Assembly (NCBI GenBank): GCA_014239555.1
Contig: JAAZYR010000005.1
Span: 62,001 to 126,000 of the forward strand
DNA length: 64,000 nucleotides
DNA from: Acidimicrobiales bacterium
GTDB taxonomy: Bacteria > Actinomycetota > Acidimicrobiia > Acidimicrobiales > Poriferisodalaceae
Direction of reading: 5' to 3'
The notes under the pieces are model-generated. The model was not told the origin of the DNA and did not search any database. It saw only the letters and a list, made by a program, of their open reading frames with translations. The translations under genes were made by a program, and so were the position numbers. Each line of letters opens with the position of its first letter. The stretch's first letter is position 1. Of the stretch, positions 2,325-27,190 are shown piece after piece.

Positions 2325-2843
2325 TCAGAGAGAAACCAATACTTCTACTGCCTTTTCAACAGCTTCTTGAGCTCGAGCATCGATTCCGGCAGTGTCGGCA
2401 CTCGCGATTGGATGTTCGATCACCGCAAAGGGATGGTGTGGTACCCCTTGAACCCGTGCCATCAATTCAGCGGCGTCTACGAACGCCGATGTCATGACAC
2501 TGATCGCAGGCACCCCATTGCGTTCTGCGACAACAGCGTCGTGCAAACTGCACGACGAGCAGCTACCTCAGTCACCCACTCCGCTTAGAACCGCATCCCA
2601 CCCCATTGCCTCGGACATCAAGTCGACCTCTGCGGGAGCGCTGTAATTCAACTTCGTCCTGCGGACGACCTCTGCGACTCCGTAACGCTCGCGCAGGATT
2701 GATTCAACTCGGTCAAAGAAGGGAACTGTGTTCTCTTTACCATTGGATATGACTCCGATAACCGCCCCTTTGAGCGTGTCGAGACGCGGCGGCGGTGCGC
2801 TGCCAGTTCGTTGTTGCTCATGACTTGGGTTAAGTAGCTCCAT
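2325..2843 (-). CDS. UGSC-family selenoprotein, in-frame UGA read as selenocysteine
   Basis: Two adjacent open frames in the same register (2570-2843 and 2325-2567) join through a single TGA at complement 2568-2570 into a 172-residue protein. The codons around it read Gly-Val-Gly-Asp-UGA-Gly-Ser-Cys-Ser-Ser-Cys, which is the U-G-S-C signature after which the UGSC family is named. Sequence on both sides is ordinary coding sequence: a Rossmann-like N-terminal half (LKGAVIGVISNGKENT) and a C-terminal half with GVPAISVMTSAFVDAA. A SECIS-like hairpin starts 10 bases after the UGA. The gene lies 2 bases after the 349-residue partner. Function of the family is not known to me; the Sec-Gly-Ser-Cys and second Cys suggest redox or electrophile chemistry. 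The alternative is a nonsense mutation, which the motif and hairpin argue against. Confidence 0.9.
2537..2557 (-). promoter_or_regulatory. Candidate bacterial SECIS hairpin
   Basis: On the minus strand the 21 bases form a perfect 8-base-pair stem around the five-base loop AGUUU, with the loop beginning 19 bases after the selenocysteine UGA. Bacterial SECIS elements are hairpins just downstream of the UGA whose apical loop carries a G in its first bases; spacing and loop content fit. It lies inside the coding frame, as bacterial elements must, and would recruit SelB. Confidence 0.8.
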
Positions 2844-2845
2844 CG

Positions 2846-3895
2846 CTATGGGACCTCACAATCGACACACGCTCCTACAGCGACGGTACTTGCTCGACTT
2901 TTCGTTCCCAGCCAGGGTGGAATGATTTGAGCAAATCCCCCGGCTGGCCCTCCAGCCGCGACCACAAGTAAATCATCAGGAGATTCCATGGCTAGATATT
3001 CCCTGTCAGCTCGATCCTTTACAACTGAACCTTTACCGACCCCAGCCCATTCACCTCGCCTGACGCGAGCCTGTTGAAAGACATAATTTCTGATGTCAGC
3101 TTTCGACCAACCAGCATCATTAAAATGCTGTCGAAGTTGGCCAGGCAGGACGACTGTGTAATTGCCAGCCCAGATCGAGTAGTGAAGCTGATTCGCTCGG
3201 ATCTCGGCCGCGATGGTGTCGCAGATTTCTGTTGGATCGGTGGTCCATTCGTTCATGATTTGTCGCGGTGCCATCGCTGCCACCGCGGTCACAGAGGAGA
3301 CCTCGCTTACACCGAGTCGTTCTTCCGCGAGCGAAGGCCACAAAGAATTTTCTTCGTCTTCTGCAATGCAATAGGTGAACTTGCCCGGATGGCCGAGCGT
3401 TGATCGATCAATTTCACCTGGACGGACATCAAGCAGATTGATTAGCCCGAGTCGGACGGCGCGGCCGATAACGGAAGAAGCTCGGTCCGCATTTCCTAGG
3501 GCATTGAAAGTTCCGGTCATCTCGAGGTCCCGACGAATCGGCCCGTTGATAATCAATAAGACCGCGCAACCTCCGGTTGAAGCGGTCGCGCCGTGAAGCA
3601 GGAAGTCGTCCTGCAGCATCGCGGTGAAGGACGCGACGACAAGCGGAAAATGCTGAGGAAGGCACCCCGCCATAACGGAATTGATGGCCAACTTCTCTGC
3701 TGTTATTGACCGTTCTCGGACGGGTTCGATACCCACCAGATGCTCTGAGGGTAGAAGGGCCCAATCGAGGCAGGCCTGAACTAGATCTAGCGTTGGGGGG
3801 ACGATAGGTAAGCCGTCGGTCCAACCGCGCGAGTGGTAGACCTCCTGCGCCGCTGCGAAGTCGGTGACATCTATCCGAGAAGAAGTCCTATCCAC
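2846..3895 (-). CDS. Uncharacterised partner of the UGSC selenoprotein
   Basis: A 349-residue soluble protein that I cannot assign to a named family with a known reaction. Visible features are an N-terminal segment with GWTDGLPIVPPT, a glycine-rich stretch TASTGGCAVLLIINGP, the segment HPGKFTYCIAEDEE near residue 190, and a C-terminal strand ending Cys-Val-Asp-Cys. It has no signal peptide or membrane helix. Its stop is 2 bases before the ATG of the selenoprotein, so the two are translationally coupled. The amidohydrolase gene just upstream ends 12 bases before this start, so all three are probably one transcript. A shared redox or thiol-dependent step is plausible but not shown. Confidence 0.8.
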   Translation of the reverse strand: MDRTSSRIDVTDFAAAQEVYHSRGWTDGLPIVPPTLDLVQACLDWALLPSEHLVGIEPVRERSITAEKLAINSVMAGCLPQHFPLVVASFTAMLQDDFLLHGATASTGGCAVLLIINGPIRRDLEMTGTFNALGNADRASSVIGRAVRLGLINLLDVRPGEIDRSTLGHPGKFTYCIAEDEENSLWPSLAEERLGVSEVSSVTAVAAMAPRQIMNEWTTDPTEICDTIAAEIRANQLHYSIWAGNYTVVLPGQLRQHFNDAGWSKADIRNYVFQQARVRRGEWAGVGKGSVVKDRADREYLAMESPDDLLVVAAGGPAGGFAQIIPPWLGTKSRASTVAVGACVDCEVP

Positions 3896-3907
3896 AAACT
3901 GATCCTG

Positions 3908-5053
3908 TCAGGACGTGGCCGCCAAACTATCGCCACCTATTGGCAACTCTGACGTGTCGATTCCATATAACTCGGCCACGTTATTGCACAAAATGTCGAT
4001 GCTTTGCTCACTCGTGAGACCCGCAGCATGTTCATCTAGCAACTCTTGACTCCATGGCCAGGTGCTGTCACTGTGCGGAAAATCGTTGGCCCACAACAAC
4101 CGCTTGTGATTCACATGGTCGACCATCTTGAAGGCAACCCAGTCATCTTGGAAGGTCGTATAAATACTCTCGCTGAAGTATTCGCTAGGCAGTTTCGATA
4201 GTTCCTGCCCCGGCGGCAGCCAATAACGGTGACGTTTGTACGCGTGATCCATTCGGTACATGTAATGCGGAACCCAACCGGCGTCTGCCTCGACACACAC
4301 CACCCGCAATCCTGGGTTTCGTTCAAATACCCCTCCGAAGACAAGGGTGCCCATAATGTCCTGATTCGCGCGAATGATTGTCATGAACGAGTTCGCTTTC
4401 GGCCCTCGGGGCCGACCTGATCCTTTTGCGGTCAAGATGTGCCACGAAAGCGGGAACTCTAAATCGATTGCTGTTTGCCAGAACGGGTCCCAACGTGGGT
4501 CGTCGTAGTCAAAGTCAGTTGCAGGATCTCCGGGCATCATGACACCACGCAAGCCAGCATTTTTCATGGCTTCTAGTTGAGTTATACCTTCTTCCACCGA
4601 ACGAAGCGGGGTCTGTCCGATTGCAAGCAGTCGATTCGAATCGACAGAGCAGTAGTCGCTTATCCAACGGTTGTAGGCGTCCATAGCAGCCTTCTTGTAG
4701 TCGGCATCAGGGTGGTTGCACAGCACCATCCCAACCGAGGGGTAGATCACCTCTGCCGATACCCCGTCGCGATTCTGATCTGCCAGTCGGTAGTCCGAGT
4801 CCCATCCACTTCGAGGTAACTCTTCCCATTTCGCGTTGGGCTTTAAGTCTTCAGGAGCCTGACCTGCAGCAGCTATCAGACCCATGTTGATGGTTCGCTT
4901 CATACCATCTATGACGTAGAGATCTCCCTTATCTTCGGTCTCCACCACATGTGGGGCGACGTCACGCCACTGTGGGTCGATGTAGTCGGTGTATGTGTTG
5001 GGCGCCTCGGCAATATGTGAATCAGCGGAGATGATCGGATGATTGACCTGCAT
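3908..5053 (-). CDS. Amidohydrolase family (amidohydrolase_2) metal-dependent hydrolase
   Basis: A 381-residue TIM-barrel hydrolase or decarboxylase of the ACMSD-like amidohydrolase_2 group. The first metal motif is present as ISADSHIAE, the barrel His in FPLSWHILTAKG, and the final Asp in LLWANDFPHSDSTWPW. Relatives decarboxylate or hydrolyse aromatic or ring-derived acids; the substrate here cannot be read from sequence. It is the first gene of a minus-strand run leading into the UGSC pair, and is divergent from an MFS transporter whose start is 73 bases away. A second member of the same family lies at 26054-27190. Confidence 0.88.
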   Translation of the reverse strand: MQVNHPIISADSHIAEAPNTYTDYIDPQWRDVAPHVVETEDKGDLYVIDGMKRTINMGLIAAAGQAPEDLKPNAKWEELPRSGWDSDYRLADQNRDGVSAEVIYPSVGMVLCNHPDADYKKAAMDAYNRWISDYCSVDSNRLLAIGQTPLRSVEEGITQLEAMKNAGLRGVMMPGDPATDFDYDDPRWDPFWQTAIDLEFPLSWHILTAKGSGRPRGPKANSFMTIIRANQDIMGTLVFGGVFERNPGLRVVCVEADAGWVPHYMYRMDHAYKRHRYWLPPGQELSKLPSEYFSESIYTTFQDDWVAFKMVDHVNHKRLLWANDFPHSDSTWPWSQELLDEHAAGLTSEQSIDILCNNVAELYGIDTSELPIGGDSLAATS

Positions 5054-26053: not shown

Positions 26054-27190
26054 CTATTTCAATCCCATGAACCGTCTTGCGTTGGTATAAATCACTTCGG
26101 TCCGCAGATCATTCAACCCAATATTGTTGAAGGTCTCATCAAGTTCGGCTAGAGCCCCAGGGTACGTGCAGTCGTAGTGGGGGTAATCCGAACCCCAGAC
26201 AACGGTGTGTGCGAGACCCATATCGGCCATTTGAGCGAACGCCTCGCCTTCTCCTGCTTCCATCGTCACGAAACATTGCTCTGAGAAAATCTCCGTCGGC
26301 TCTCTTTTCAACCGTGGAACGAGGTGACCCATCGATTCTTTGTGCTCATCGAGACGATCCAGCCAATAAGGCAACCAACCCAGCCCAGATTCGAAAAATC
26401 CAACTCGCAACCGAGGATGGTCGTCCAAAATACCGCTAGCAACCAACTCCATAACCGATGCCATCTGCTCAAACGGGTGACAGACCATGTGGACATAAAA
26501 CTGGTTGCTGTATCGGGTTTTGGCAAAGCTCGTCATGTTTGAACCGAAGCTGCCGTGGATAGCGACTGTCATGTCGTGGTCTTCGGCGGCCGACCACACG
26601 CGGTCCATCTCTTCGGAATAGAGTTCAAGTCCGCCATAACGCTCAGGCCGGAACGTGACACCTGTGAGCCCTGCTTCAGCGCAGGCCGCAATTTCTGCAA
26701 TAGCGTGATCAGTGGATTGAAGCGGGGCAACACCAACACCATAGAGACGATCTCGATTCTCTGATACGAAATCTGCCATCCACCGGTTGTAGCCGCGAGC
26801 ATTAGCGGCGGCGACATCTGGTTCTGAGATATCTCCAGACAAAAGATGCAACGACGGGAACATCAACGCCGCGTCAAGCCCCTCGGCATCCATGACTTTG
26901 AGTCGCTCAGCGGGGTCATAGCTCCCGGGGACGATGTCGTCCCAAGTCACTTCGGTCCCATATGCGTCCGGGATACAAGCAGGAGCGCAACTCATGCCTA
27001 GGCCTTTGTCTTCAACGAAGATGCTGTCTAGTTGCCCAACTGGTCGACATTGCATAACCAATTCACGAAATTTCGGGTCGGTATATTCCTGCCATACCGA
27101 CGGCGGTTCGGCAATGTGTGCGTCGGAGTCATAAACCGGAACTGCTCCGGTCGATGCGTACGGTTCTTCTGTTAGTAGTGGTCCGCCCAT
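26054..27190 (-). CDS. Amidohydrolase family (amidohydrolase_2) protein
   Basis: A 378-residue TIM-barrel metal-dependent hydrolase or decarboxylase. The N-terminal metal motif is VYDSDAHIAEPPSVW, the barrel His is in MTVAIHGSFGSN, and the last Asp is in TVVWGSDYPHYDCTYPGAL. It resembles the protein at 3908-5053 in length and motif layout and is probably a paralogue. Between an esterase and a dienelactone hydrolase it may take part in breakdown of a cyclic or aromatic compound; the substrate is not visible from sequence. Confidence 0.88.
   Translation of the reverse strand: MGGPLLTEEPYASTGAVPVYDSDAHIAEPPSVWQEYTDPKFRELVMQCRPVGQLDSIFVEDKGLGMSCAPACIPDAYGTEVTWDDIVPGSYDPAERLKVMDAEGLDAALMFPSLHLLSGDISEPDVAAANARGYNRWMADFVSENRDRLYGVGVAPLQSTDHAIAEIAACAEAGLTGVTFRPERYGGLELYSEEMDRVWSAAEDHDMTVAIHGSFGSNMTSFAKTRYSNQFYVHMVCHPFEQMASVMELVASGILDDHPRLRVGFFESGLGWLPYWLDRLDEHKESMGHLVPRLKREPTEIFSEQCFVTMEAGEGEAFAQMADMGLAHTVVWGSDYPHYDCTYPGALAELDETFNNIGLNDLRTEVIYTNARRFMGLK

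Follow-up and report, generated by a model that had tools for sequence, protein, structure and literature searches.

Selenocysteine very probably encoded by an in-frame UGA in a UGSC-family gene of an Acidimicrobiales bacterium, and a conserved partner gene at its side

Introduction

The UGSC proteins have been catalogued as a selenoprotein family since at least 2008 (PMC2398784; also PMC9312934 and PMC13188914). For the family, a thioredoxin-like fold was suggested in PMC2398784. In the Actinobacteria, UGSC selenoproteins with selenocysteine (Sec) encoded by UAG were described for the Geodermatophilaceae (PMC5330540), and Sec was reported for several actinobacterial genera (PMC5029168). For bacterial SECIS elements, the bSECIS model (PMC13188914) holds a loop with G at its first position, an N-G-U-N-N apex, a spacing of 16-37 and a minimum free energy below -7.5.

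Here we describe a UGSC gene from a draft genome of an Acidimicrobiales bacterium (Poriferisodalaceae, GCA_014239555.1). The term “window” is used for the whole analysed stretch of 64,000 nucleotides (contig JAAZYR010000005.1, positions 62,001 to 126,000), and all coordinates without a contig name refer to it. Compared to the known family (PF24696, NF041046), the gene has in common the full-length match, the Sec-UGA at the U of U-G-S-C, the UxxC motif, the SECIS just downstream and the existence of Cys homologues. In the accessible parts of PMC2398784 and PMC13188914 there is no description of three copies in one genome or of a partner gene kept so strictly; otherwise no difference was found. 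The Geodermatophilaceae proteins belong to the same family and are likewise decoded with Sec in an actinobacterial host; however, their Sec codon is UAG with a CUA anticodon, while UGA and a UCA anticodon are found here. Sec in a UGSC gene is consequently not new, as the family is catalogued and Sec is documented in the Actinobacteria. The near-universal partner, its fusions and its versions with thioredoxin domains form the less expected part of the finding and offer a concrete protein pair for study.

Results and Discussion

The UGSC gene and its in-frame TGA

The gene and the elements within it are the following:

2325..2843, minus strand: predicted selenoprotein gene of the UGSC family, product of 172 residues when TGA is counted as Sec, plus the final TGA stop (PF24696, NF041046)
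2568..2570, minus strand: putative Sec-UGA codon, residue 92, first letter of U-G-S-C; TGA in all orthologues of the bacterial family; where genomes lack the Sec machinery, the homologues have Cys codons
2325..2327, minus strand: ordinary TGA stop of the UGSC gene, from sequence and translation
2538..2556, minus strand: predicted SECIS hairpin, 8-bp stem GUCGUGCA/UGCACGAC, loop GUU (A-G-U-U-U apex), 19 nt from UGA to loop

Sequence and translation gave a start codon ATG at 2843 and a single frame of 172 codons on the minus strand, ending at TGA 2327-2325. The internal TGA at 2570-2568 is in frame, exactly where the preliminary description had placed it within one reading frame (complement 2568-2570). 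As also noticed there, the four codons from this point spell U-G-S-C, with GGT AGC TGC (G S C) behind the TGA. With the TGA read as a residue, the product around the site is ...DAVLSGVGD-U-GSCSSCSLHDAVVAERNG.... That both sides are coding, a further claim of the preliminary description, was borne out by the profiles and by the substitution pattern. The Pfam family UGSC (PF24696) matched the joined protein over residues 3-170 (168 residues, E=7.5e-49, 166.6 bits, cut-off 25), the NCBIfam model UGSC_fam (NF041046) reached 127.8 bits at a curated cut-off of 125, and dN/dS against the same-genus orthologues was 0.04-0.07 both before and after the TGA. A total of 33 in-frame TGAs with at least 60 open codons on each side were counted across the window. 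For the UGSC gene a chance in-frame TGA is excluded, since one family profile spans the TGA and the orthologues of 39 genomes keep it at the same codon. Despite its in-frame TGA, the gene is intact and belongs to the UGSC family, and we regard it as a clean, well-supported Sec gene of the sort that gene callers tend to split.

In an alignment of 42 sequences [UC]-G-S-C was invariant. Homologues compared with the joined 172-residue protein carry Cys at the Sec position with frames that are never disrupted, so that the other possibility raised beforehand, a different sense codon with disrupted flanks in relatives, did not materialize. Thr at the Sec position was not seen among the sampled homologues. 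One alternative takes the UGA as a true stop, with two proteins of 91 aa and about 73 aa, the second made from an internal start. A downstream open reading frame with a TTG start at 2546 does exist; however, this TTG lies at the apex of the hairpin, past the conserved G-S-C-S-S-C. This stretch would go untranslated, in spite of the invariance of [UC]-G-S-C at the protein level. In addition, the Cys homologues are single uninterrupted proteins, the UGSC profile describes one domain, and the structure model folds as one domain (pLDDT 93). Two separate proteins are thus very unlikely.

Selenocysteine machinery of the genome

The assembly that holds the window comprises 2.72 Mb in 68 contigs (draft) and is 95.6% complete. 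A tRNA-Sec gene was found at C68:20887 with 65.5 bits (gathering score 47), and ARAGORN called it as tRNA-SeC with anticodon tca. On the same contig selA (C68:37841-38953, 399 bits) is directly followed by selB (C68:38978, 289 bits), while selD is located at C44:173025 (369 bits). The lack of selB or selC, which had been considered beforehand as speaking against Sec, was hence not observed: tRNA-Sec, selA, selB and selD are all present. The selD sequence reads CAG TAC AGC CAC GGC GCT GGT TGA GCC TGC AAG, with an in-frame TGA at the active-site codon (SHGAG-U-ACKL; L018 1530-1532, G000:C44). As selD carries UGA at the active-site position, SelD is a second selenoprotein of this genome. The preliminary description had pointed to a working Sec system in an actinobacterial lineage as worth documenting. 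The full machinery agrees with the first part of this statement; the novelty was overstated, since Sec in Actinobacteria had already been published (PMC5330540, PMC5029168). An actinobacterial host is in line with the named relatives.

TGA also serves as an ordinary stop, for the UGSC gene itself and for several other long open reading frames of the window; therefore, UGA is not globally reassigned. This bears on the possibility that UGA is reassigned genome-wide, e.g. to Trp or Gly, or is passed by non-specific readthrough. Nothing was found in favour of it. Moreover, homologues have Cys and not Trp or Gly at the Sec position, and the occurrence of the TGA tracks tRNA-Sec (see below), which makes such a decoding vanishingly unlikely.

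Conservation of the TGA and its linkage to the Sec machinery

The genome contains three UGSC genes with one internal TGA apiece. UGSC genes were found in 39 of 39 searched genomes of the bacterial family, at one to six per genome. The TGA is present in all copies that span the site, as well as in the orthologues of five other genomes of the genus. These data decide on the possibility of a pseudogene, or of a sequencing or assembly error that turned an ordinary codon into a premature stop. The draft state of the genome with its 68 contigs speaks for it to some degree, as single-base errors happen. Nevertheless, the conservation of the TGA across genomes, including the five others of the genus, all genomes of the bacterial family and both other copies of the same genome, refutes it. 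The low dN/dS downstream of the TGA and the complete Sec system also argue against it, and we consider a pseudogene or an error extremely unlikely.

For a broader view, an evenly drawn phylum sample of 396 genomes was used, 29 of them with a UGSC match. All 23 genomes with TGA copies possess tRNA-Sec, and 22 of the 23 possess selA. The one without a selA match (G074) has a TGA copy and tRNA-Sec, and the missing match probably reflects incompleteness. For the class with uninterrupted copies only, copies above the cut-off that span the motif were considered. Two genomes (G140 and G188) lack both tRNA-Sec and selA and carry Cys in a CGSC motif; G332 has the Cys form despite the presence of Sec machinery, and G322 combines one TGA copy with one uninterrupted copy. 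Cys at the first motif position was found in L067, L083, L086 and L087. The association of TGA with tRNA-Sec gave a Fisher p-value of 3.5e-8 in a 2x2 table of 49 genomes, a calculation that leaves out most UGSC-negative genomes and ignores shared ancestry.

Two single cases were observed besides. G226 possesses a UGSC gene with TGA, selA and tRNA-Sec, and its congener G129 (genus g14) has none of the three, a candidate for recent loss of the whole Sec trait. In a UGSC copy at G024:C126:4373-4864 the matched stretch contains a TAG in addition to the TGA, which may reflect decay of this copy or an error of the assembly.

A predicted SECIS hairpin downstream of the UGA

The hairpin GUCGUGCA-GUU-UGCACGAC agrees with every point of the bSECIS model (PMC13188914), with an 8-bp stem, a 3-nt GUU loop, A-U closing and a 19-nt spacing. 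The 51 nt behind the UGA fold with -17.9 kcal/mol, which is not exceptional in single-sequence folding against dinucleotide shuffles (z=-0.55), and synonymous-codon shuffles gave mixed results. As the fold energy of the single sequence is not significant, the case for a SECIS was built on covariation and on the comparison with Cys forms. Among 28 distinct sequences 94.2% of the stem cells were paired, changes on both sides were found in 5 of the 8 pairs, and none of 500 shuffles was as high on the stem pairing measures or on the covariation score. The full set of eight stem pairs is possible in 37 of the 44 distinct UGA forms versus 0 of 89 Cys forms (mean 4.4 pairs). As loop codon, 40 of the 44 UGA forms have AGU, which was not among the codons listed for the Cys forms. 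An Rfam search near the UGSC gene yielded one sub-threshold chance match and no SECIS family. In the most divergent UGSC copy of the genome (L021 = L061 6384-6911) the hairpin after the UGA is weak and differently shaped, which makes this copy the weakest case for a SECIS.

Frame, family, machinery, hairpin and the linkage of the TGA to the Sec machinery are established at the level of sequence and comparison, and from this level of evidence we conclude that the UGA at 2570-2568 is almost certainly read as Sec. With high confidence the insertion at residue 92 would be directed by SelB: as the ribosome arrives at the hairpin 2556-2538, SelB would deliver Sec-tRNA(Sec) to the UGA 2570-2568. The outcome would be a single 172-residue protein with U92-G-S-C95, and selenium would be expected in the actual peptide.

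Predicted structures of UGSC and its partner

The high-confidence model of the UGSC protein (pLDDT 93.4, pTM 0.87) consists of five successive beta-alpha units. Their order is Rossmann- or flavodoxin-like, and the helix after the third strand begins with residue 92. Searches against the PDB gave many generic matches with TM-scores of about 0.5 (Rossmann-like, GTPase or TIR-type folds), none of them specific, and thioredoxin was absent among the best 50. The beta-alpha order of the model and the lack of thioredoxin among these 50 do not support the thioredoxin-like fold suggested in PMC2398784. The fold of UGSC is predicted to be Rossmann-like and not thioredoxin-like. Accordingly, the model with its successive beta-alpha repeats differs, as a prediction, from the thioredoxin-fold selenoproteins.

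GrdB and PrdB, subunits of glycine and proline reductase (PF07355), are likewise alpha/beta proteins able to carry Sec, and motif and fold order hinted at homology. This relationship was not supported by profile-profile comparison, in which seven full-length GRDB proteins gave an hhalign probability of 0.2%. The same genome also encodes three proteins of about 150-170 aa (G000:C7:30623-30976, L191; C1:118127-118495; C22:101184-101402) that lack internal stops and whose similarity to the GRDB model is confined to its C-terminal third; they are a separate stand-alone family.

For the product of the adjacent gene (see below), the model reached a pLDDT of 88.7 and a pTM of 0.90. The top Foldseek match by E-value was class I fumarate hydratase (E=1e-4, probability 0.97). 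With TM-scores of only 0.27-0.32, a shared fold is not supported; matches to cyanuric acid/orotic acid hydrolase were weaker still and were also dismissed. PDB sequence searches with the profiles of UGSC and partner found nothing at E up to 1, and a viral structure library returned generic alpha/beta matches only. No structural relative in these searches points to a specific enzyme for either protein.

The partner gene and the gene neighbourhood

Two genes upstream of the UGSC gene belong to the conserved cluster of the window's orthologue group:

2846..3895, minus strand: conserved partner gene, 349 aa, stop codon 2 nt before the UGSC start codon
3908..5053, minus strand: gene of the Amidohydro_2 family (PF04909), the third in the conserved cluster

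The partner product of 349 aa matched no Pfam or NCBIfam family. Its residues C78, R145, D163, C176 and E179 are near-invariant. Homologues of it adjoin all three UGSC copies of the genome and the copies of other genera, either before or after UGSC. In the phylum sample the partner was adjacent or fused in 27 of 29 loci, the two exceptions being UGSC matches below the cut-off. Of 80 loci with the Cys form in named genomes, 76 likewise had the partner; these genomes include Microbacterium, Amycolatopsis, Pseudonocardia, Sphingobium, Chelatococcus and the haloarchaea Natrialba and Halorubrum. Two loci (L053 and L065) encode UGSC and partner fused as one protein of 582-599 residues. The UGSC/Unknown_1 fusion of the GOS survey (PMC2398784, Fig. 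S1A) similarly joins UGSC to a conserved domain; in L053 and L065 this is the family of the 349-aa neighbour. One subgroup of partners is extended by an N-terminal domain that gives weak matches to Pfam thioredoxin and whose CxTC motif and TVPT loop are typical of thioredoxins.

Due to the near-universal adjacency and the fusions, we assume with moderate confidence that UGSC and its neighbour act together. Slightly better than even, in our judgement, is the more far-reaching proposal that the UGSC and partner families form a previously undescribed two-subunit (seleno)enzyme with a UxxC motif, acting in small-molecule catabolism in Actinobacteria, Proteobacteria and haloarchaea. UGSC would be the small subunit and the 349-aa neighbour its obligate partner, with U92/C95 at the helix N-terminus as redox or nucleophilic active site. 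The thioredoxin-like domain on many partners and the invariant [UC]-G-S-C also speak for this proposal. In the window, the catabolic cluster in which the pair might act would further comprise the amidohydrolase, a transporter of MFS-like type and an aldolase of the HpcH/HpaI type. More speculatively, U92/C95 could form a selenenylsulfide or a nucleophilic site in small-metabolite turnover, reduced by the fused thioredoxin-like domains where these are present. The differing gene context between UGSC groups counts against the proposal, as does the result that no structural relative points to a specific enzyme. In groups other than that of the window, the neighbours are aldehyde and alcohol dehydrogenases, acyl-CoA dehydrogenase, TauD, CoA-transferase or MaoC.

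Alternatively, UGSC could be a stand-alone thioredoxin-like thiol oxidoreductase with a neighbour that is only co-transcribed. The UxxC motif and the fold guessed in PMC2398784 would fit. However, the Rossmann- or flavodoxin-like model without thioredoxin among its best PDB matches and the partner being adjacent or fused in almost all loci, bacterial and haloarchaeal, render this unlikely. UGSC is among the commonest selenoproteins of aquatic metagenomes, and the association with the partner is a useful lead to its function.

Other genera of the bacterial family share the gene order that includes the amidohydrolase gene at 3908..5053, with 80-88% identity. A distant paralogue of this amidohydrolase (26% identity) is located at 26054-27190 of the window.
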